A stretch of 64,000 nt of DNA. Source: Pelomonas caseinilytica (GTDB lineage: Bacteria > Pseudomonadota > Gammaproteobacteria > Burkholderiales > Burkholderiaceae_C). The notes beneath the pieces were generated by a model that saw only the letters and a list, made by a program, of their open reading frames with translations, did not search any database and was not told the origin of the DNA. This document shows, piece after piece, positions 1,962 to 13,898 of the stretch; within the stretch, counting starts at the first letter, position 1, and each line of letters opens with the position of its first letter. The stretch is from the NCBI RefSeq assembly GCF_021353235.1, contig NZ_JAJTWT010000009.1:62001-126000 (forward strand), written 5' to 3'. A program made the translations under genes and the position numbers.

Positions 1962-3403
1962 GGGCAGGCCGTCGGCCGCGGCAGTTCGTAGAGCGTGGCG
2001 CGCCGGCCCGTGGAAACCGGTCGTGCGTCCTGCGGCGCGGCGTCGGGCGGAGCCACCAGCCAGAGCCGGCCGGGGCCGCAGCGTTCTCGGGCCAGGCGCG
2101 CGGGCGTCCACAGCACGCGGTCGCCGCCCGCTGGGTCGAAGCGCGCGGCATCCAACAGCTCGCGATGCCAGCTGTCGGCGCCGTCGTTGCGCAGGGCATC
2201 CCAGTCGGCCAGCACGGCCGGCGGCTGCGTCAGCCGGGCCTGCAGGCGCAGGTCGAAGAAGGGCTCCGAAGTGACTACCACGCGGTCGCCGGGCGCCATG
2301 CGGGCGTGCAGGGCGGCGCCGACGTCGGCATGGTCGGGCTTGCCCCAGCGCACGATGCCGGGCACCGCCGCGACGCAGATCAGCGCGCCCAGGCCCCAGG
2401 CCAGCCGCGCGCCACGCCGGCCGCGCCAGGCCTCGAAGAGCAGCAGGGTCAGCGGCAGCAGGGCGGGCAGCACATAGCCGACCAGCTTGGAGCGCGGCAG
2501 CGAGAAGAAGGCGACGATGGCGATGACCCACCACAGGTCTGGCCCGATGCGGCGCAGGGCGGCGGGCAGTCGCAGGCTCATCGGCAGGGTGCCCAGGGGC
2601 AGCACGGCCAGGAAGAACCACCACGGCTGGGCGTTGTTGAAGCGCGCCTCGGTGTAGCGGTGGAAATGCTGCTCGACGATGAAGTAATCGAAAAAGCCCG
2701 GATAGCGCTGCTGCATGGCCAGCATCCAGGGCAGGGCCAGCGCGGCGAACACGGCCAGGCCGAGGGGGTGCAGGGCCAGGCGCAGCGCCCGCCAGCGGCG
2801 CTGCCACAGCAGCACCGGCAGCACCACGAGGCCGGGCAGCACGACGCCGATGAGGCCCTTGGAGAGCAGGGCCATGGCCATCGCCGCCCAGGCGCCGCAG
2901 ATCCAGGCCAGGCGGTGGCGCTCGGCATCGAAGGCACGCCGCGCTGCCACGACGGCCAGCGAGATCCAGCCGGCCACCAGCATGTCGTGGTTGGCGTATT
3001 GGCCGCCGAGGTAGAACAGCGGCAGCACGGCCAGCCAGGCCAGGGCGCGGGCGGCGTCCTGCGCCCCCCAGCGCGCGCGGGCCTCGATCCACAAGGCCAG
3101 GCCCAGCAGCCAGGCGCCCAGCAGCGGCGCGGCGCGCAGGGCCAGCGGCTTGGGGCCGAGCAGGTGCAGGGCCGCCATGTCGATCCAGTACATCAACGGC
3201 GGCTTGTGGAAATAGGGCAGGCCGAAGAGGGTGGGCGTCAGGCCATCGCCGCCGGCCAGCATCTCGTAGGCGACGCCGCCGTAACGGCCCTCGTCGGGCA
3301 GGGCGACGGGGCGCCATCCGGCCAGGGCCACCAGCCACAGCGCCAGCAGCGCGAGGGGGGCCCAGGCCGGCAGGCGGCGGGCGGGTTCGGCGGGAGACGG
3401 CAT
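1958..3403 (-). CDS. ArnT-like GT39 family lipid A glycosyltransferase
   Basis: 481 aa integral membrane protein. An N-terminal helix (about 12-30) is followed by the first periplasmic loop LPDEGRYGGVAYEML, whose DE pair is the conserved catalytic region of GT39/ArnT enzymes. GLPYFHKPPLMYW is the second family signature. About ten further membrane segments precede a soluble periplasmic C-terminal domain from roughly residue 350. These enzymes move a sugar from undecaprenyl phosphate to lipid A (ArnT with Ara4N, FlmK with GalN, LgmB with GlcN). The downstream gtrA overlaps by 4 bp. No arn genes are visible, so a hexosamine donor made by the neighbouring GT2 and deacetylase is more likely than Ara4N. 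Confidence 0.86.
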   Translation of the reverse strand: MPSPAEPARRLPAWAPLALLALWLVALAGWRPVALPDEGRYGGVAYEMLAGGDGLTPTLFGLPYFHKPPLMYWIDMAALHLLGPKPLALRAAPLLGAWLLGLALWIEARARWGAQDAARALAWLAVLPLFYLGGQYANHDMLVAGWISLAVVAARRAFDAERHRLAWICGAWAAMAMALLSKGLIGVVLPGLVVLPVLLWQRRWRALRLALHPLGLAVFAALALPWMLAMQQRYPGFFDYFIVEQHFHRYTEARFNNAQPWWFFLAVLPLGTLPMSLRLPAALRRIGPDLWWVIAIVAFFSLPRSKLVGYVLPALLPLTLLLFEAWRGRRGARLAWGLGALICVAAVPGIVRWGKPDHADVGAALHARMAPGDRVVVTSEPFFDLRLQARLTQPPAVLADWDALRNDGADSWHRELLDAARFDPAGGDRVLWTPARLARERCGPGRLWLVAPPDAAPQDARPVSTGRRATLYELPRPTACP

Positions 3404-3470
3404 GGCGCCAGCCTAGGGCTGGCCTGTGACGTTGTTTGTCGTGGAGCTGTCAGGCGCTTGCGCCAAGGCG

Positions 3471-4478
3471 TCAGCGCCGCGGTGGGATGCGCCGGGTCTC
3501 GCCGATCGCCAGGGTGAAGAAGGCCTCTTCGGCCAGGCCTTGGGCCGCGCGTTGCCAGCCGAGCTGGCGGGGCGGCTCGTCCAGGGCTTCGTCGGTCAGC
3601 TCGAAGGTGCCCCAATGCACGCCGAGCGAACGCTTGGCGCCCAGGTCGGCATGGATCTTCAATGCCTCCTCGACGTTGACGTGCTGGTCCTGCATGAACC
3701 AGCGCGGCTCGTAGGCGCCGATGGGGATCAGGGCGATGTCGAAACCGCCCTCGGCCTGGCGCGTGGCGAAGCGCTCGCGGATGTCGGTGAAGTCGCGCGA
3801 GTAGCCGGTGTCGCCGGCGAAGAACAGGTGGCAGTCGGGCGCGAAGACGGCGAAGCCGCCCCACAGGGTCTTCATGCGGTCGCCCAGGCCCCGCGCCGAC
3901 CAGTGCCGCGCCGGCACCAGCACCAGTTCCAGGCCGTCCAGGCCATGCGACTGCCACCAGTCCAGCTCCACCACGCGCTCGATGCCGCGGCGGCGGAACC
4001 AGTCGGCCAGGCCGAGCGGCACCGCGAACAGCGGGCTGCCGCTCGACTGGGCCGCCAGCGCGCGGCAGGACGGAAGGTCGAGGTGGTCGTAGTGGTTGTG
4101 CGAGACCAGGACGGCGTCGATGCGCGGCAGCTCGCGCAGGGCCAGGCCCGGCGGCTGCTCGCGCTTCGGCCCGGCGAAGGGCAGGGGCGAGGCGCGTTCC
4201 GAAAAGATCGGATCGGTCAGCAGGTTCAGGCCGCCCACCTGGGCCAGCACCGTGGCATGGCCGACCCAGGTGACGGCGGGGGCCTGCGCCGGGCCGGCAT
4301 TGCCGTGGATGAAGCCGAGGTCGGCCGGCTGGGCCGGGATGGGCACCAGCGGCCGTGGCGGCAGCCCGCGGCGGGCGGCGCTCCAGCGCCAGCGGATCAC
4401 CTCGGCGAGCGACTTGGCCTCGAAATCGCCGTGGTTGTTCTGGAAACCGCCCCGGCGGTGATGAGGCGGCCGGCTCAC
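3471..4478 (-). CDS. MBL-fold metallo-hydrolase (UlaG/NAPE-PLD-like)
   Basis: 335 aa from a GTG start at 4478 that overlaps the stop of the upstream globin gene (GTGA). The zinc-binding signature SHNHYDHLD lies at residues 116-124; the preceding WVGHATVL and LTDPIFSERASP and the later FFAGDTGYSRDF and GVHWGTFELTDE match the NAPE-hydrolysing phospholipase D-like/UlaG branch of metallo-beta-lactamase-fold enzymes. No signal peptide is seen, so it is probably cytoplasmic. The substrate cannot be read from sequence; bacterial members act on lipid-like phosphodiesters or lactones. The overlap suggests co-transcription with the exported globin, a pairing whose logic is unknown. Confidence 0.88.
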   Translation of the reverse strand: MSRPPHHRRGGFQNNHGDFEAKSLAEVIRWRWSAARRGLPPRPLVPIPAQPADLGFIHGNAGPAQAPAVTWVGHATVLAQVGGLNLLTDPIFSERASPLPFAGPKREQPPGLALRELPRIDAVLVSHNHYDHLDLPSCRALAAQSSGSPLFAVPLGLADWFRRRGIERVVELDWWQSHGLDGLELVLVPARHWSARGLGDRMKTLWGGFAVFAPDCHLFFAGDTGYSRDFTDIRERFATRQAEGGFDIALIPIGAYEPRWFMQDQHVNVEEALKIHADLGAKRSLGVHWGTFELTDEALDEPPRQLGWQRAAQGLAEEAFFTLAIGETRRIPPRR

Positions 4479-5849: not shown

Positions 5850-8423
5850 TCAGCCCTCGGCAATGCGCCGGGCCAGGTGGGCGAGCGCCTCCTCGACCTG
5901 GTCGACGAGCACCAGGCAGAGGTCGCCGGGCGAGAGGCGGGCCAGGGCGCGGTCGATGGCGATGAATTCGCCGACGATCTCCTCCACGTGCCGGGTGCGC
6001 GAAGCCCCTTGCAGGCCGGCACGCAGCAGGGCCACTACTTCGCCGGCCGCGCGTCCGCGCTGGCAGGCGTCCTCGTACAGGATGACTTCGTCGAAGGCGC
6101 CGCCGAGGATCTCGGTCTGCACGCGCAGGTCCTCGTCGCGGCGGTCGCCCGCGCCGCTGATGACGACGACGCGTTTGTTCGCCGGCATGGCCGACACGGC
6201 GCCCACGAGGGCCTTCATCGCGTCGCCGTTGTGGCCGTAGTCGGCGATGACGGTGGCACCGCGGTAGTCCATGACGTTGAAGCGGCCGGGCGCGTTGTCG
6301 GCGTCGTTGGCGAAGCTGCCGACGCCGCGGCGGATGGTGTCCCAGTCCAGGCCCACGCCCCAGGCCGCGGCGACCGCGGCCATGGCGTTCTCGACCTGGA
6401 AGCCGATGACGCCGCCGCGGGTGAGGGGGATGTCGCGCAGCGGGATGCTCTCGCGCCACACGCCCTGGGCGGCGACGAGCTGGTCGCCGTCCACGTAGAC
6501 GCAGCGTTTGCCCTGTGCGCGGTGGGTGGCCATCAGCGGATGGTGGCGGTCGGCGGCGAAGTAGATGACCTGGCCGGGGCAGACGGCGGCCATGGAGGCC
6601 GTCAGCGGGTCGGCCGCGTTGAGCACGGCATAGCCGCTCGGCGCCACGTTCTGCACGATGACGCGCTTGACGAGCACCAGGTCCTCGGCCGTGTTCAGGA
6701 AGTTCATGCCGAGGTGGTCTCCCTCGCCGACGTTGGTGACGACCGCCACCTGGCAGCGGTCGAAGCCCAGGCCTTCGCGCAGGATGCCGCCGCGGGCGGT
6801 CTCGAGCACGGCGGCTTCCACGTCGGGGTGCATCAGCACGTTGCGGGCGCTCTTGGGGCCGGAGCAGTCGCCGCTGTCGATCTGGCGGCCGTCGACGTAG
6901 ACGCCGTCGGTGTTGGTCATGCCCACCTTGAGGCCGCAGCTGGCGAACATGTGGGCGATGAGGCGGGTCACCGTGGTCTTGCCGTTCGTGCCGGTGACGG
7001 CGACGACGGGGATGCGGCCGTCTTCGGCCATCCCTCCCGATTTATGCCCGGTGCCGAACAGGTGGCCGATGATGGCTTCGCCGACGTTGCGGCCCTTGCC
7101 GAAGCTGGGCGACAGGTGCATGCGCAGGCCCGGCGCGGCATTGACCTCGACGATGCCGCCGTTGATCTCCTCCAGCGGGCGCAGCACGCTCTCGGCCACC
7201 ACGTCCACGCCGCAGACGTGGAGTCCCACGACCTGGGCCGCCGCGATGGCGCGGGCCGCCACCTCGGGATGGACGTCGTCGGTCACGTCCGTCGCGGTGC
7301 CGCCGGTGGAGAGGTTGGCGTTGTTGCGCAGGATGACGCGCTGGCCCTTCTCGGGCACGGACTCGGGCGTCAGGCCCTGCTGGGTCAGCCGCGCGACGGC
7401 GATGTCGTCGAAGCGGATCTTGGTCAGCGAGGTGGCATGGCCGTCGCCGCGGCGCGGGTCGGCGTTGACCTTGTCGACCAGCTGCTTGACGGTGAGCTGG
7501 CCGTCGCCGATGACGTGGGGCGGGTCGCGGCGGGCCGCCGCGATGAGCTTGTCGCCGATGACGAGCAGCCGGTAGTCGCCGCCGGGCAGGAACTTCTCGA
7601 CCATGACCTGGCCGATCTCGTCGGCGGCCTTGTAGGCAATGTCGAAGTGGGCGCGGTCCACGACATTGACCGTCACGCCCTTGCCCTGGTTGCCGTCCTG
7701 CGGCTTGACGACGACGGGCAGGCCGATCTCCTGGGCGACGGCCCAGCCGTCCTCGGGGGAGTCGACGGGTCGGCCGGTGGGCACGGGCACGCCGGCGGAC
7801 TGCAGCAGGCGCTTGCACAGGTCCTTGTCCTGGGCGATGGATTCGCTCACGGCGCTGGTGGCGTCCACCTCGGCGGCCCAGATGCGGCGCTGCTTGGCGC
7901 CCCAGCCGAACTGCACGAGGCTGCCCTGGGTGAGGCGGCGGTAGGGGATGCCGCGTGCTTGTGCCGCGTTGACGATGGAGCCGGTGGACGGGCCGAGGCG
8001 GATGTCCTCGTCGAGTTCGCGCAGCTGGGCGAGCACGGTGTCGGCCTCGAACTCGCCGCCGGTGAGGGCGGCGTTGACGAGCTTGACCGCCTGCTCGAAG
8101 GCCAGGCGCCCGACGTCCTCCTCGCTGTACTCGATGACGATCTGGTAGGTGCCCGCCTCGGGCGTGACGTGGGTCTGGCTGAAGGTGACCGGGCAGCCGG
8201 CCTGGGCCTGCAGGGCCAGCGTCGCCTGCTCCAGCACCTGGGCCAGCGAGGCGTCGGCCCGCAGCTCGCCGATGGTGGGGAAGAGCTTGCGCAGGCGCGG
8301 CTCGAAGCCGGGCAGGCGTTCGAGCGAACGCTCGACGTCGCTGCAGTGCACGACGGCCTCGATGGCCGTGTGGCGGCTCCACATGTTGGGGCCGCGCAGG
8401 GCGCGGGTGCGGGAAACGTCCAT
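5850..8423 (-). CDS. cphA1: Cyanophycin synthetase CphA1
   Basis: 857 aa, close to the usual 870. It polymerises aspartate and arginine into cyanophycin, the multi-L-arginyl-poly-L-aspartate nitrogen reserve, in the cytoplasm with ATP. Order of domains: an N-terminal domain (about 1-160, opening SRTRALRGPNMWSRHTA), an ATP-grasp domain (about 215-470, with PVVVKPQDGNQGKGVTV and EVNAAPGLRMH) and a Mur-ligase-like domain whose P-loop GTNGKTT is at 478-484. Both active sites look intact. The start was chosen at 8423, where the family N-terminus begins and 29 bp from the cphA2 stop, so the two are one operon with cphA2 first. No cyanophycinase gene is visible in the window. Confidence 0.96.
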   Translation of the reverse strand: MDVSRTRALRGPNMWSRHTAIEAVVHCSDVERSLERLPGFEPRLRKLFPTIGELRADASLAQVLEQATLALQAQAGCPVTFSQTHVTPEAGTYQIVIEYSEEDVGRLAFEQAVKLVNAALTGGEFEADTVLAQLRELDEDIRLGPSTGSIVNAAQARGIPYRRLTQGSLVQFGWGAKQRRIWAAEVDATSAVSESIAQDKDLCKRLLQSAGVPVPTGRPVDSPEDGWAVAQEIGLPVVVKPQDGNQGKGVTVNVVDRAHFDIAYKAADEIGQVMVEKFLPGGDYRLLVIGDKLIAAARRDPPHVIGDGQLTVKQLVDKVNADPRRGDGHATSLTKIRFDDIAVARLTQQGLTPESVPEKGQRVILRNNANLSTGGTATDVTDDVHPEVAARAIAAAQVVGLHVCGVDVVAESVLRPLEEINGGIVEVNAAPGLRMHLSPSFGKGRNVGEAIIGHLFGTGHKSGGMAEDGRIPVVAVTGTNGKTTVTRLIAHMFASCGLKVGMTNTDGVYVDGRQIDSGDCSGPKSARNVLMHPDVEAAVLETARGGILREGLGFDRCQVAVVTNVGEGDHLGMNFLNTAEDLVLVKRVIVQNVAPSGYAVLNAADPLTASMAAVCPGQVIYFAADRHHPLMATHRAQGKRCVYVDGDQLVAAQGVWRESIPLRDIPLTRGGVIGFQVENAMAAVAAAWGVGLDWDTIRRGVGSFANDADNAPGRFNVMDYRGATVIADYGHNGDAMKALVGAVSAMPANKRVVVISGAGDRRDEDLRVQTEILGGAFDEVILYEDACQRGRAAGEVVALLRAGLQGASRTRHVEEIVGEFIAIDRALARLSPGDLCLVLVDQVEEALAHLARRIAEG

Positions 8424-8452
8424 GTTGGTGTGGCGGTTCTTTGTTTTGGAGT

Positions 8453-10627
8453 TCAGGCGAGGTGGAGCTCGGGGACGAAAGTGTCCAGGCCGGCGGCGAT
8501 GAGTTCCGGCGAGATGCCCAGCGCCCAGGCGGTGGCGACGGCGGCCAGCAGCGTGGAGGCGTCGGTCGCGCGTTCGCCGAAGCGGCGCAGCAGGGCTTCG
8601 ATGTTGGCTCCGGGCGTCTCGGCCGGCCCCTGCGCCAGCACCGCGGCGCCACCGCGCAGGAAGACGGCCCGGCCGCCGCGCTCGCGGTGGTGGCGCAGGG
8701 CCTCGAGCTCGCCATCCTCGGCGTAGAAGACCACCTCGCCGTCGCTGAGCTCGGCCATGTCGACGAGGCGCGGGCAGGCCGCGTTCAGCACGGCCGCGCC
8801 GTCGCTGAGGACCACGTCGACCTGGGTGCGCAGCACCTTGTAGAGCTGGTCGGCTTCCTGCACGTCGAACTCGGCCAGGGCTTCGGCGCCGTCCAGGTCG
8901 GTCACGACGCCGACGTGGCAGCGGTCGTAGGCCAGGCCATCGCGCAGGATGGAGGCCGGGTCGTTCTCGACGACGACGGCATTGACGCCGCGGTTCATCA
9001 GCAGGCGGTGTGCGGCATCCCAACGGGCGCTGTTGCGCTTCTCGACGCGGCGGGTGCCCAGGAACAGGCCGTCACGGCAGGCCAGGCCGACGTGGCGGCC
9101 GTTGAGATGCAGCAGCCAGGCGACCAGCCGCGTGACCTGGTGCCCGCCGCGCGAGCCGGCGACGCCGACGATGGGGATGCGGCCGTTCTCGTCCTCGGCG
9201 AAGAGGTGGTCGATGATGGCCTGGCCGACCGGCTGTGGCGCGCCGCCCGCGGGCTTGAGGTGCATCAGCAGCCCGGGGCCGGCGTTGACCTCGACGATGG
9301 CGCCGCCCGTCTCGGCCAGCGGCTTGGAGATGTCCTCGGTGACGAGGTCGACGCCGGCGATGTCCAGGCCCACGGTCCGTGCCGCGAGGGACACGGCATG
9401 GGCCACCTCCGGGTGGACCTCGGCCGTGCAGTCGATGGCCACGTTGCCGTTGCGCTGGATCAGCACCGACTTGCCGGCCGGCGGCACGGCCTCGGGGCTG
9501 AAGCCCTGGCGCTGCAGGTCCAGCAGCACCACGGCGTCCTCGCCCAGCACGATGCGGTTGAGAGGGAAATCCTCGGTCAGGCCGCGGCGGGGGTCGGTGT
9601 TGATCTGGAGGTCGACCAGCTCGGCGATGCTGTGCTGGCCATCGCCGTGCACCCAGGCGGCCTCGCCGCGGGCGGCGGCCACGACCCGGCCGCCGACGAC
9701 GAGCACGCGGTGCTCATTGCCGCGGATGTAGCTCTCCACCAGCACCGAGGAGCCTTCGGCATCGGCCAGCTTGAAGGCGGCCTCGCAGTCGGCCTGGTTG
9801 GCGATGTCGAGCGTGACGCCGCGGCCGTGGTTGCCGTCGCTGGGCTTGATGACCACCGGCAGGCCGATGTCCTGCGCGGCCTCCCAGGCCTCGGCGACGG
9901 TCTTGACCTCCTGGCCCTCGGGCACCGGCACGCCGACGGCCTTGAGCAGGGTCTTGGTGAGGTCCTTGTCGCCGGCGATGCCCTCGGCGATGGCGCTGGT
10001 CATGTCGGTCTCTGCCGTCCAGATGCGGCGTTGGCGGGCGCCATGGCCGAGCTGCACGAGGTTGCCGTCGTTCAGGCGGATGTGGGGAATGCGCCGGTCG
10101 GTGGCGGCGGCGACGATGGCTGCCGTGGAGGGGCCCAGGTAGCAGTCGTCGAGCTTGTCGCGCACGCGGGCCACGGCGGCGGCCACGTCGAAAGGCTCGT
10201 CGTTGATGGTGGCCATGATGAGGGCGTGGCCCTCGGCCAGGGCGGCGCGGGCGACCTGCTCGTCGCGAGCACGGAAGACCATGCGGTAGACGCCGCGCTG
10301 GCTGGTGGAGCGGGTCTGGCCGAAGCCGGTGGGCATGCCGGCCAGGTTGAGCAGCTCGATGACGATGTGCTCCAGCACGTGGCCGCACCAGGTGCCCTCG
10401 CGCAGCCGCTCCAGGAAGCCGCCGCGCTCGCCGACGCCGCAGTGGTGCTCGATGAGGTTGGGCAGGGCGGCGGTGAGCCGGTCGTTGAAGCCGGGCAGCA
10501 GGTGGCTGGGATGGTCTTCCAGCTCGCCGAGGTCCAGCCAGACTTCCAGCACCGGCCGGTAGGTCCACATGTTGGGACCGCGCAGGTAGTTGATGCGCAG
10601 CAGGCGGATGTCGTTCTTCTTGCTCAT
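8453..10627 (-). CDS. cphA2: Second cyanophycin synthetase, CphA2-like, with degenerate Mur-ligase P-loop
   Basis: 724 aa, about 130 shorter than CphA1 and related to it throughout. The N-terminal domain (LRINYLRGPNMWTYRPVLE) and ATP-grasp domain (PVVIKPSDGNHGRGVTL, EVNAGPGLLMH) are intact. In the Mur-ligase region the P-loop GTNGKTT of CphA1 is replaced by GSRGGHQ at 491-497, so the nucleotide-binding Lys and Thr are lost, and the C-terminal part is shortened. Cyanobacterial CphA2 likewise keeps only a working ATP-grasp site and re-polymerises beta-Asp-Arg dipeptides; the same role here is an inference. First gene of the cphA2-cphA1 operon and divergent from the ABC/DUF1854 genes, with 100 bp between starts. 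Confidence 0.93.
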   Translation of the reverse strand: MSKKNDIRLLRINYLRGPNMWTYRPVLEVWLDLGELEDHPSHLLPGFNDRLTAALPNLIEHHCGVGERGGFLERLREGTWCGHVLEHIVIELLNLAGMPTGFGQTRSTSQRGVYRMVFRARDEQVARAALAEGHALIMATINDEPFDVAAAVARVRDKLDDCYLGPSTAAIVAAATDRRIPHIRLNDGNLVQLGHGARQRRIWTAETDMTSAIAEGIAGDKDLTKTLLKAVGVPVPEGQEVKTVAEAWEAAQDIGLPVVIKPSDGNHGRGVTLDIANQADCEAAFKLADAEGSSVLVESYIRGNEHRVLVVGGRVVAAARGEAAWVHGDGQHSIAELVDLQINTDPRRGLTEDFPLNRIVLGEDAVVLLDLQRQGFSPEAVPPAGKSVLIQRNGNVAIDCTAEVHPEVAHAVSLAARTVGLDIAGVDLVTEDISKPLAETGGAIVEVNAGPGLLMHLKPAGGAPQPVGQAIIDHLFAEDENGRIPIVGVAGSRGGHQVTRLVAWLLHLNGRHVGLACRDGLFLGTRRVEKRNSARWDAAHRLLMNRGVNAVVVENDPASILRDGLAYDRCHVGVVTDLDGAEALAEFDVQEADQLYKVLRTQVDVVLSDGAAVLNAACPRLVDMAELSDGEVVFYAEDGELEALRHHRERGGRAVFLRGGAAVLAQGPAETPGANIEALLRRFGERATDASTLLAAVATAWALGISPELIAAGLDTFVPELHLA

Positions 10628-10727
10628 GGAGCGTGTCGAGTAAGGGGTTGTGCAGGGCCTAAGCGCGTGGAATTGTGCGCCGAAGTCATCAGGGAGAATC
10701 GGCCCAGCCCGTAAGAGCGAAGAACAC

Positions 10728-12983
10728 ATGCAAGAACATCCTCCCGTCGACCTGCCTCATCCACACGCGACCGCATTGCAATCGCGGCTCCTGGCTGGCG
10801 AGAACGTGGTGGCGACGCTCGAGGTTGACCTGGACGCCCACGGACGCTTCGCCCAGGGCCTGGTGGCGTTGACGAATGCACGCCTGCTGGCCTTCGAGCC
10901 GGACGGCGGCGCCTGGGCCGAGTTCCCGCTCGCGCCAGGCCTGGGCCTCAAGCTGAGCGACCATGGCGGCCTGGCCTTCATGGAGCTGTTCGACACCCAC
11001 CGGCGCCTGGCCCGCTGGCGCTTCACCCTGGCCTGCAACCCGGCGGCCGTGCGCTTCGTCGAGGCCTTCGACCGCGAGGTGCAGCGCCTGGCCGGCCATG
11101 TCGTGCGCGACGAGGAAGACGACGGCGAGGAGTCGAGCTTCGACTTCGGCGAGGCCGGCGCGCCGCCCAGCACCTGGGTGCTGCTCAGGCTGGGGCGCTT
11201 CGCCCGGCCCTACCAGGGGCAACTGCTGCTGGGCTTCGCGCTGATGCTGGGCGCGACCGGGGCCACCCTGGTGTCGCCTTACCTGACCATGCCGCTGATG
11301 GACAAGGTGCTCATCCCCTTCCAGAACGGCCAGGCCATCGACCCCCATCTCGTCACGCTGCTGCTGGCCGGCCTGCTCGGCGCGGCGCTGTTCTCCTGGG
11401 CCCTGGGCTGGGCCAAGACCTATCTGCTGGCGCTGGTGTCCGAGCGCATCGCGGCCGACCTGCGAACGACCACCTTCGAGCACCTGCTGGGCCTGTCGCT
11501 CGAATACTTCGGCAACAAGCGCACCGGCGACCTGATGTCGCGCATCGGCTCGGAGACCGACCGCATCTCGGTCTTCCTGAGCCTGCACGCGCTGGACTTC
11601 ATCACCGACGTGCTGATGCTGGCGATGACGTCCATCATCCTGTTCAGCATCCACCCGGGGCTGGCCCTGGCCACGCTGGTGCCGCTGCCCTTCATCGCCT
11701 GGCTCATCCATCTGGTGCGCGACCGGCTGCGCACCGGCTTCGAGAAGATCGACCGCGTTTGGGGCGAGATCACCAACGTGCTGGCCGACACCATCCCCGG
11801 CATCCGCGTGGTCAAGGCGTTCGCCCAGGAAAAGCGCGAGGCCACGCGCTTTCGCGACGCCAATGCCAACAACCTGGCCGTCAACGACCGGCTGAACAAG
11901 ACCTGGAGCCTGTTCACCCCCACCGTCGCCCTGCTCACCGAGATGGGCCTGCTCGTCGTCTGGGGCGTGGGCATCTGGCTGATCGCCCACCAGAGCATCA
12001 CCGTGGGCACGCTGACGGCCTTCCTGGCCTACATCGGCCGCTTCTACGGCCGGCTGGACTCGATGAGCCGCATCGTCTCCGTCACGCAGAAGGCCGCGGC
12101 CGGCGCCAAGCGCATCTTCGACATCCTCGACCACGTCTCCAACGTGCCCGACCCGGTCAACCCGCTGCCCTTCCACGACGTGACGGGCGCCATCTCGATG
12201 CAGGGGGTCAACTTCCGCTACGGCTCGCGCTCGGTCATCCGCTCGCTCAACCTGGACATCCGCCCCGGCGAGATGGTGGGCCTGGTGGGCCACAGCGGCT
12301 CGGGCAAGAGCACCCTGGTCAACCTGATCTGCCGCTTCTACGACGTGACCGAGGGCGCCATCAAGGTCGACGGCGTGGACCTGCGGCGCGTCAAGGTGGC
12401 CGACTATCGCCGCCACATCGGCCTGGTGCTGCAGGAGCCCTTCCTCTTCTTCGGCACCATCGCCGAGAACATCGCCTACGGCAAGCCGAACGCGACGCGG
12501 GCCGAGATCGTCGCGGCGGCGCGCGCCGCCCACGCCCACGAGTTCATCCTGCGCCTGCCGCATGGCTACGACAGCCTCGTCGGCGAGCGCGGCCAGGGCC
12601 TGTCCGGCGGCGAGCGCCAGCGCATCTCCATCGCCCGCGCCCTGCTCATCGACCCGGCCATCCTCATCCTCGACGAGGCGACGAGCGCGGTCGACACCGA
12701 GACGGAAAAAGAGATCCAGCGCGCGCTGGACAACCTCGTCAAGGGCCGCACCACCATCGCCATCGCCCACCGGCTGTCGACGCTGCGCAAGGCCGACCGC
12801 CTCGTGGTGATGGACCGTGGCGAGATCGTCGAACTCGGCCCGCACGACGAGCTGATCGCCCAGCAGGGCCACTATTGGCGGCTGTGGGAGGCCCAGGCCC
12901 GCCGCGTCGATGCCGAGGCCGGCGAGGACGACGGTCTGCTCGTCGTCGCGCCCAATCCCAGTGCCCACACGGAGAACGCATGA
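10728..12983 (+). CDS. Cyanophycin-associated ABC exporter (fused TMD-NBD) with N-terminal PH-like domain
   Basis: 751 aa half-transporter. Residues 1 to about 125 form a soluble domain ([20 protein letters not shown], then [12 protein letters not shown]) that resembles bacterial PH-like domains, followed by an acidic linker ([13 protein letters not shown]). Six membrane segments run from about 155 to 455. The ATPase has Walker [10 protein letters not shown] (Lys527), signature LSGGERQR and Walker [11 protein letters not shown] with the catalytic Glu. The fold is a type I exporter (MsbA/lipid or peptide type). It is divergent from cphA2-cphA1 and overlaps a DUF1854 gene by 4 bp; this pairing recurs beside cyanophycin synthetases in betaproteobacteria. 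The substrate is unknown. It would act in the inner membrane as a homodimer. Confidence 0.9.
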
Positions 12984-13453
12984 GCCTGCTGCCCTTCCGC
13001 GACCTGCACCTGGACGCCTTCGGCAAGCTGGTGCTGACCGACCTGAACGGCGATGCCCACGTCGGCGTGACGCCGGTGCGTGCCCATCCCATCTCGGCGC
13101 CGGACGAAGGCCTGTCCCTGGTGGGCAGCCATGGTCACGAGCTGGCCTGGGTGGAACGCGTGTCCGACCTGCCCGAGGCGCCGCGCCGCCTGCTCGAGGC
13201 CGAGCTCGCCGCGCGCGAGTTCCACCCCGTGATGAAGCGGCTGATCTCCGTCAACACCTTCGGCACGCCCAGCACCTGGCGCATCGAGACCGACCGCGGC
13301 GAGGTCGATTTCGTGCTCAAGAGCGAGGAAGACATCCGCCGGCTGGAAGGTGGCCGGCTGCTGATCACGTCCAGCCACGGCGTGCAGCTGGAGGTACCCG
13401 ACCGCTGGGCGCTGGACAAGCCGTCCAAGAAGCTGCTGGAACGCTTCCTGTAG
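12980..13453 (+). CDS. DUF1854 protein, cyanophycin locus partner
   Basis: 157 aa, no signal peptide or membrane helix. It matches the DUF1854 pattern: DLHLDAFGKLVLTDLNGD and GVTPVRAHPISAPDEGLSLV early, ELAAREFHPVMKRLISVN in the middle, then TPSTWRIETDRGEVDFVLKS, ending LITSSHGVQLEVPD. The function is unknown. ATGA overlap with the ABC exporter stop indicates translational coupling, so it is probably a soluble accessory of that transporter or of cyanophycin handling. Nothing in it suggests an enzyme active site. Confidence 0.88.
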   Translation: MSLLPFRDLHLDAFGKLVLTDLNGDAHVGVTPVRAHPISAPDEGLSLVGSHGHELAWVERVSDLPEAPRRLLEAELAAREFHPVMKRLISVNTFGTPSTWRIETDRGEVDFVLKSEEDIRRLEGGRLLITSSHGVQLEVPDRWALDKPSKKLLERFL

Positions 13454-13494
13454 CGAGGATCGGGCTTGCCCGGCTCCGGCAGAGTGGGCAGGCG

Positions 13495-13547
13495 GCCACC
13501 AAAGGCGGCGCTCCAGGGGTGTCCGCCGCCGTCAGTGCCCTGGTGGC
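13495..13547. repeat. Nested inverted repeat downstream of the DUF1854 gene
   Basis: GCCACCA (13495-13501) pairs with TGGTGGC (13541-13547), and an inner GGCGG/CCGCC pair lies inside. There is no T-run after it, so it is a REP-like or processing structure rather than a clear intrinsic terminator. Confidence 0.5.
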
Positions 13548-13562
13548 GGCTTGAACAGGCCC

Positions 13563-13598
13563 TAGAATGCCGCCCGGCGCCGACATCCGGCGCTTTTT
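13563..13598 (+). promoter_or_regulatory. Candidate csp promoter -10 and leader hairpin with T-tract
   Basis: TAGAAT at 13563-13568 looks like a -10 element; no good -35 is found at 16-18 bp. Just downstream GCGCCG (13577-13582), loop ACATC, CGGCGC (13588-13593) and TTTTT (13594-13598) form an intrinsic-terminator-like hairpin. Either it terminates the ABC/DUF1854 transcript, or, if TAGAAT is used, it folds at the very 5' end of the cold-shock mRNA. The leader to the csp start is about 110 nt, long for this genome but normal for csp genes. Confidence 0.45.
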
Positions 13599-13682
13599 GT
13601 TGGCTTGTTTCCTGAACGTTGTTGTGAATTCCGCAGCCGCTCTGGAGCGAGCTGCATGGCACGACAACAGCAAGGAAATTCC

Positions 13683-13898
13683 ATGAGCACCCTCCAGACC
13701 GGCATCGTCAAGTGGTTTGACGACGGCAAGGGCTTCGGCTTCATCACCCCCGCCGACGGCGGCAAGGACCTCTTCGCCCACCACACCGAGATCAAGAACG
13801 GTGGCGGCTTTCGCACGCTGGCCGAAGGCGCCCAGGTCGAATTCGAGGTGAAGCAGGGCCCCAAGGGCCTGCAGGCCGCCAATATCCGCGCGCTGTAA
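13683..13898 (+). CDS. Cold-shock protein, CspA family
   Basis: 71 aa. A single cold-shock domain with RNP1 KGFGFITP and RNP2-like DLFAHHTEI, opening [11 protein letters not shown]; this is the full family length of about 67-72 aa. Such proteins bind single-stranded RNA or DNA and melt mRNA structure. The start follows AAGGAAATTCC, a good ribosome site. A long leader with a hairpin precedes it and a strong terminator follows, so it is monocistronic. Whether it is cold-induced or constitutive cannot be told from sequence. Confidence 0.95.

Follow-up and report, generated by a model that had tools for sequence, protein, structure and literature searches.

The 64,000-nucleotide stretch of Pelomonas caseinilytica DNA analysed here (contig NZ_JAJTWT010000009.1, positions 62,001 to 126,000; henceforth the window) contains four neighbouring genes, which bring together two cyanophycin synthetase homologues, an ATP-binding cassette (ABC) exporter and a protein of the DUF1854 family. 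The ABC gene (10728..12983, forward strand; ATG at 10728, TGA at 12981-12983) encodes 751 amino acids, and the DUF1854 gene (12980..13453, forward strand; ATG at 12980, stop codon at 13451-13453) encodes 157. On the opposite strand, 100 bp from the ABC start, begins the gene of a synthetase homologue that we call CphA' (8453..10627, reverse strand, 724 amino acids), followed by that of CphA1 (5850..8423, reverse strand, 857 amino acids counted from Met). A scan of the 100-bp divergent intergenic region (10628..10727) for a sigma-70 consensus promoter gave no match. We found that the pairing of ABC-DUF1854 with cyanophycin synthetase genes (cphA) is not a matter of chance and that CphA1 and CphA', as far as aligned residues can tell, show complementary loss of site residues.

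We followed the pairing at three taxonomic levels, in samples of 299 (phylum), 229 (class) and 100 (order) genomes, and in 14 controls; the nearest named genomes indicate that the order is Burkholderiales. A sequence-only reading of the window had proposed that the ABC-DUF1854 pair goes together with cphA. That reading was to be refuted if the pairing proved as frequent in genomes without cphA, and it survived the count. In the phylum sample, DUF1854 (PF08909) was present in 16 genomes and the synthetase model TIGR02068 exceeded its cut-off in 20; all 16 carriers are among those 20, and none of the 279 genomes without cphA over the cut-off has DUF1854. The family-specific DUF1854 model NF052234 matched in 36 genomes of the order sample and TIGR02068 matched at E <= 1e-150 in 38, with 36 of 36 carriers inside those 38 and none among the 62 genomes without cphA (Fisher test, 3.6e-25, a value that ignores phylogeny). 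The transporter model NF052233 at E <= 1e-250 picked out five genomes of the class sample, three of them already in the phylum or order samples; the two additions (G476 and G593) belong to a family outside the order and also carry all four genes. The association is also one of position. ABC and DUF1854 adjoin a CphA gene in all 16 phylum-sample loci, and both synthetases are present in 15 of these. A further 27 order genomes all have ABC, DUF1854 and CphA' together on one contig, which also holds CphA1 in 24; in the remaining three CphA1 is separated by contig breaks or, in G325, not found.

A broader view was provided by named loci L067-L146, the best 80 of at least 560 relatives, whose record titles are betaproteobacterial or merely 'proteobacterium'; the nearest named genomes among these 80 matches are Pelomonas/Roseateles. 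A cphA match lies within the examined region in 74 of them. The divergent arrangement described in the sequence-only reading holds for the window and for 64 of these 74 loci, but not for the other 10, in which the genes run in one direction (Nitrosomonas, Nitrosospira, Propionivibrio and Accumulibacter are among them). Since both gene orders occur, the linkage between ABC-DUF1854 and CphA' appears to survive rearrangement. Among the six loci without a cphA match, five (L096, L133, L138, L117 and L127) come from genomes that carry cphA elsewhere. At the remaining one, L143, the opening 89 residues of CphA' are present at a contig edge; the 1.7-Mb assembly of L143 gave no cphA match at E <= 1e-100. 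No natural ABC-DUF1854 fusion occurs among the 78 of these best 80 loci that have an ABC match. Two irregular loci were seen elsewhere. At L166 (G328, 6037-13665) about 7.6 kb of other DNA separates the ABC gene from CphA', so that the pair is near it and not adjacent. At L155 (G308, 8533-11347) CphA1 is split into two overlapping frames, by a frameshift or an assembly error, with CphA', ABC and DUF1854 open.

The division between the two synthetases is best described against published work. According to passages of PMC9262961, CphA1 may have a third site besides the G and M sites, a Cx19HxxEH motif in the N domain that acts as an endo-cyanophycinase, makes primers and works in trans; H267A serves there to inactivate the G site, as D585A/H586A does for the M site, and an engineered N-G+M+/N+G-M- heterodimer is active, somewhat less so without primer. 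Two residues of the large loop in the G domain, Asn394 and Ser396, are located at the substrate aspartate according to passages of PMC9427784. In the window, CphA' has an intact Cx19HxxEH motif, a shortened G-domain aspartate loop, an M domain that has lost its P-loop and DH, and no Mur_ligase_C match. CphA1 has lost the N-domain site and keeps the NANLSTGG G loop as well as the M-domain GTNGKTT and DH, with Gln at the G-domain His267 position. The combination typical of a primer-independent CphA1, namely Cx19HxxEH on the same chain as the G and M sites, is thus divided, with the motif present in CphA' and absent from CphA1. Profile scores differ as well: CphA1 scores 954.5 bits against TIGR02068 (cut-off 850), whereas CphA' reaches 702.6 bits with that model and 1028.7 bits with NF010623 (cut-off 877).

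The same division recurs in an alignment of complete open reading frames from the window, L047-L061 and L067-L146; rows L055 and L062-L066 and incomplete frames were kept apart, and two of the eight rows so set apart are short M-domain-only proteins. The N-domain residues C, H, E and H are found in 85 of 85 CphA' sequences and in none of 82 CphA1 sequences. The G loop is the full NANLSTGG in all 82 CphA1 rows and lacks four or five residues, which this alignment places at STGG, in all 85 CphA' rows, and the M site keeps GTNGKTT and DH in 82/82 CphA1 rows, compared with a GTNGK P-loop in 1/85 CphA' rows. Column by column, the N site has zero entropy in CphA', whereas in CphA1 its Cys column is all gap and the others vary; the M-site columns are invariant in CphA1 and variable in CphA'. 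The N-site split is repeated in the 27 further order genomes (CphA' 27/27, CphA1 0/26), a set that is not fully independent of the alignment since the named loci and these genomes may share species, and it agrees in both pairs from outside the order (G476 and G593). In a quick tree of 74 sequences, some of them on long branches, each of the two synthetases of these loci forms a clade of its own with support 100, CphA1 with 31 rows and CphA' with 33. A single old duplication followed by a division of labour would be the simplest reading of these sequences. A different partition, with N and G in CphA' and M in CphA1, was considered and dropped for two reasons: part of the aspartate loop present in CphA1 is missing from CphA', and Gln267 is found too in the CphA1 pair that lies next to cphB in G294.

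Canonical CphA1-CphB systems share the CphA1 fold and the synthetic sites with the window module, but they differ in two respects. First, their CphA1 is a one-piece protein with all three sites on one chain (G086, G267, G083, G293, G335 and G375), whereas the window module has its N site in a second protein; no DUF1854 was found in these six genomes. Second, none of the 16 ABC-DUF1854 loci of the phylum sample has a cyanophycinase (TIGR02069) beside it, as opposed to all five phylum-sample loci without ABC-DUF1854 (G086, G267, G083, G293 and the second locus of G294), where a TIGR02069 match lies within 300 bp of cphA1 (Fisher test, 4.9e-5, again ignoring phylogeny). In the order sample cphB is 1.9 kb from cphA1 in G335 and on another contig in G375. 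The lack of a cyanophycinase gene beside the units suggests a polymer that is clipped and then leaves the cytoplasm, instead of one that is simply stored and recycled. The window genome (G000) does have TIGR02069 matches, on contigs 1 and 13, away from the locus on contig 40: two close together at 5142-7215 of contig 1, one of them over the cut-off, and one at 25066-25728 of contig 13, with a signal-peptide-like N-terminus by eye.

Some further synthetase relatives deserve mention in their own right. The second cyanophycin locus of G294 (L066, contig 1, 5334400-5350900) has two divergent CphA1 paralogues, both without the N site, and cphB. Near canonical one-piece cphA1 genes there is a protein of 585-618 amino acids that appears to be a stand-alone relative of the M domain, Mur-ligase-like and with GTNGKT/S and DH kept; it is found at L176 5686-7440 (G335) and as short CphA-like frames in L063 and L064 (G267 and G083), and L178 (G375) has two M-like stretches within a single open frame.

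The ABC protein combines ABC_membrane (149.9 bits) and ABC_tran (118.5 bits), both above the Pfam cut-offs, on one chain with intact nucleotide-binding motifs, which is the make-up of a type-IV ABC exporter. Its ABC_membrane match begins at residue 166, after an extension of about 150 residues, and the ATPase domain spans residues ~505-653; the exporter with an extra N-terminal soluble domain that had been read from the sequence beside the synthetases is therefore there. What we take to be the Walker A, LSGGERQR signature, Walker B and H-loop motifs, with residues read directly in the sequence, are intact in the window protein and invariant in a 16-row alignment. NF052233 matches the protein at 1321.7 bits (curated cut-off 880) over positions 14-753 of 766. 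Outside this family the highest-scoring named models belong to MsbA-like and further exporter families; all fall short of their cut-offs, among them the MsbA equivalog TIGR02203 at 470 bits (cut-off 602). Among solved structures, TM288 and Sav1866 are two of those that best match the full core; P-glycoprotein types have higher scores over two halves. The membrane-ATPase core is thus common to MsbA-like type-IV exporters, whereas the N-terminal PH fold with zinc ribbon and the DUF1854 partner set this transporter apart.

The PH-fold superfamily is a seven-stranded barrel capped by a C-terminal helix. The AlphaFold model of the N-terminal domain (residues ~11-121; 10758..11090, forward strand), built with 61 aligned sequences, has seven strands and a long C-terminal helix, with block-mean predicted local distance difference test (pLDDT) values of 90-97 over residues 11-120. 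Foldseek matches to this model in the PDB are led mostly by PH and PH-like domains, with a best E of 5e-4 and template modelling (TM) scores of about 0.4-0.5. The four at E <= 0.001 are three Brag (IQSEC) entries and the Exo84 Ral-binding domain, followed by the Sin1 PH and Lam6 PH-like domains and, lower down, Vps36 PH/GLUE. The PH-like character proposed from the sequence is therefore predicted by the model too, at modest scores. No Pfam PH or bPH profile matched over its cut-off; bPH_3 appeared in 3 of 61 members (best E 0.095), the window protein not being one of them. Many relatives have a CxxC..CxxC zinc ribbon between the PH-fold and membrane domains, and Pfam zinc-ribbon profiles match there. 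It occurs in 14 of 16 rows of the first alignment and in 46 of the 73 named loci whose N-terminus could be read (41/73 with a narrower pattern and search range); a search along the entire open frame found it in 20 of the 27 further order genomes. It has been lost in the window protein, where an acidic linker takes its position (11091..11160, forward strand), in Pelomonas-type neighbours and in many Variovorax. A plasmid search with the N-terminal domain returned just two weak, chance-like matches.

The DUF1854 protein scores 159 bits with Pfam, above the cut-off, and 211.8 bits with NF052234 (cut-off 150), and its start overlaps the ABC stop as ATGA, in agreement with the coupling noticed earlier. 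By eye it has neither a signal nor a membrane segment. Its structural model has a pLDDT of 90.4 and a predicted TM score (pTM) of 0.58, and a search of the PDB produced no convincing fold relative (best E 6e-3, TM 0.20). The domain itself exists outside the cyanophycin system: PF08909 is over its cut-off in Sulfolobus acidocaldarius, one of the 14 control genomes and the sole case seen beyond Pseudomonadota. This species stays below the NF052234 cut-off, and the controls with cphA at E <= 1e-150 do not include it. No DUF1854 relatives were found in viral contigs, and plasmids gave no match at E<=1.

The association, real as it is, has already been catalogued. NCBIfam names NF052233 'cyanophycin metabolism-associated ABC transporter' and NF052234 'cyanophycin metabolism-associated DUF1854 family protein'; these entries record the association only, and their listing includes no mechanism, zinc ribbon or synthetase split. 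The Group 1 cluster in the relevant section of Farmer et al. 2023 (PMC10687191) likewise has two cphA copies, one ABC transporter and no cphB, together with two insertion sequences (IS). That section proposes a composite transposon and contains no DUF1854, PH domain or site analysis, and the paper names cphB analogues and transport genes as future work. To call the locus an undescribed system, as the sequence-only reading did, was consequently too strong. DUF1854 is not mentioned by name in the open-licence literature searched, and no description of the ABC-DUF1854 pair, the synthetase split or the exporter was found in a literature whose coverage mostly leaves out subscription papers. What this analysis adds is the complementarity of the two synthetases, an inverse relation with adjacent cyanophycinase and the zinc ribbon; both the zinc ribbon of the relatives and the complementary degeneration of the synthetases were absent from the earlier reading.

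Based on these observations, we propose that the four genes form a conserved cyanophycin module in which CphA1 polymerises, CphA' clips and ABC-DUF1854 moves the pieces out across the inner membrane, a mechanism to which we assign a probability of about 45%, somewhat short of even. CphA1 would be the polymerase, acting through its G and M sites after losing the hydrolase site of its own N domain. CphA' might act as a separate subunit with a mainly hydrolytic role: the metallopeptidase site of its N domain would cut cyanophycin to short (beta-Asp-Arg)n pieces, and these could prime CphA1 or be handed on. The PH-fold/zinc-ribbon domain and DUF1854 may represent cytosolic docking parts for the synthetases or the polymer, and the ABC-DUF1854 complex would pump cyanophycin or its fragments outward across the inner membrane, thereby occupying the place that cyanophycinase has next to cphA1 in other bacteria. 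We infer in this scheme the catalytic activities and their loss, CphA1-CphA' heteromers, the binding of DUF1854 to the transporter, the substrate and the direction of transport. The polymerising and the clipping and priming steps follow from the catalytic residues kept and lost and from the published in-trans biochemistry of the cyanobacterial enzyme. Export is suggested by the linkage, the exporter architecture, the intact ATPase motifs, the missing cyanophycinase and a report on R. eutropha H16, whose cphA genes gave no detectable cyanophycin when overexpressed at home or in E. coli, according to a passage of PMC8560796. Export would explain that result, and so would inactivity. Export is the weak step of the mechanism; the observations would accommodate membrane tethering, or a different substrate, almost as well.

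Several observations weigh against the proposed mechanism. Gln stands at the His267 position in all 82 CphA1 sequences (it is His in G353, G365 and L184), so that the G site of CphA1 might itself be altered. Conversely, CphA' retains the G-domain Lys in 85/85 and His267 in 84/85 rows and may for that reason not be purely hydrolytic; moreover, the M motifs (P-loop and DH) remain in CphA' of four of the 27 order genomes (G323, G339, G380 and G386). In G185 a single CphA with N, G-loop and M motifs on one chain, cut by a contig end, lies beside ABC-DUF1854; it is placed next to CphA' in the tree (support 97). At L133 the DUF1854 gene (3053-3502) has no cyanophycin-type ABC gene in the 3 kb upstream, where there is only a 32%-identical ABC stretch at 1112-1711, and the NF052233 gene of that genome is on another contig. 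Finally, four of the 36 order genomes with ABC-DUF1854 (G294, G358, G316 and the window genome) have TIGR02069 over its cut-off elsewhere. One cyanophycinase-family gene of G294 adjoins that genome's second cphA locus, and signal-peptide-like N-termini were recognised by eye in G358, G316 and one of the three window-genome matches.

Among the alternatives, the one that survives best, though we consider it rather improbable, is that ABC-DUF1854, instead of transporting cyanophycin, anchors the synthetases or the granule at the membrane or serves as a sensor of ATP or lipid, with the polymer staying inside and being remobilised by CphA' and dipeptidases. PH folds are common membrane- or protein-binding folds, and such a fold is predicted here. 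DUF1854 looks cytosolic, and the endo-cyanophycinase site kept in CphA' could replace cphB. However, nucleotide-binding residues invariant in 16 rows point to a working pump, and tethering would not need them. Somewhat less credible still is the export of another small molecule (e.g. free arginine, beta-Asp-Arg dipeptide or a toxic by-product) that relieves overflow. Type-IV exporters are broad in substrate, and the best models and solved relatives of the ABC protein span several exporter kinds; close linkage with the CphA1/CphA' pair in the sampled genomes speaks against this possibility.

CphA2 is a shortened CphA1 paralogue with no working M site. Cyanobacterial CphA2 resembles CphA' in this respect and is described in a passage of PMC10206079 as using one active site, raising the possibility that CphA' works as a ligase of the CphA2 kind and joins beta-Asp-Arg dipeptides back into polymer, with the transporter serving dipeptide traffic. 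The shortened G loop of CphA' beside the aspartate pocket, with Lys and His267 retained, would agree with such an enzyme. We nonetheless regard it as unlikely, since CphA2 has no N-domain motif according to a passage of PMC9262961, whereas CphA' has it in all 112 rows of two alignments (85/85 and 27/27), and since no cyanophycinase adjoins these loci to supply dipeptides. It is very improbable that the cluster is merely inherited as a block or transposon in which the ABC pair hitch-hikes without any cyanophycin function: IS elements flank Group 1 clusters in the pertinent part of PMC10687191, but the linkage is kept across two gene orders, genomes with cphA1 and ABC-DUF1854 on separate contigs still have both, and DUF1854 is missing from every phylum-sample genome without cphA over the cut-off.

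Returning to the proposed module, complementary site loss in CphA1 and CphA' leads to a direct prediction, namely that both proteins are needed together and that CphA' is the missing endo-cyanophycinase. This bears on a puzzle stated in passages of three papers, that of betaproteobacteria with cphA and no cyanophycinase (PMC5178258, PMC5670224, PMC10687191). It is tempting to go further, albeit with considerable doubt, and to view betaproteobacterial cyanophycin as a processed, exported product rather than an internal recyclable reserve, made and clipped by a two-subunit synthetase of N-G+M+ CphA1 and N+ CphA', with the PH/zinc-ribbon exporter and DUF1854 secreting the oligomers in place of an intracellular cyanophycinase and some members recapturing the product via exported cyanophycinases. 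If the module works as proposed, DUF1854 and its transporter would receive their first function. Because two Accumulibacter loci (L113 and L146) carry the module, it also bears on nitrogen recovery in wastewater. In the window, the DUF1854 gene is followed on its 3' side by a frame at 13683-13898 (forward strand) for what we presume from its sequence to be a small cold-shock-like protein.

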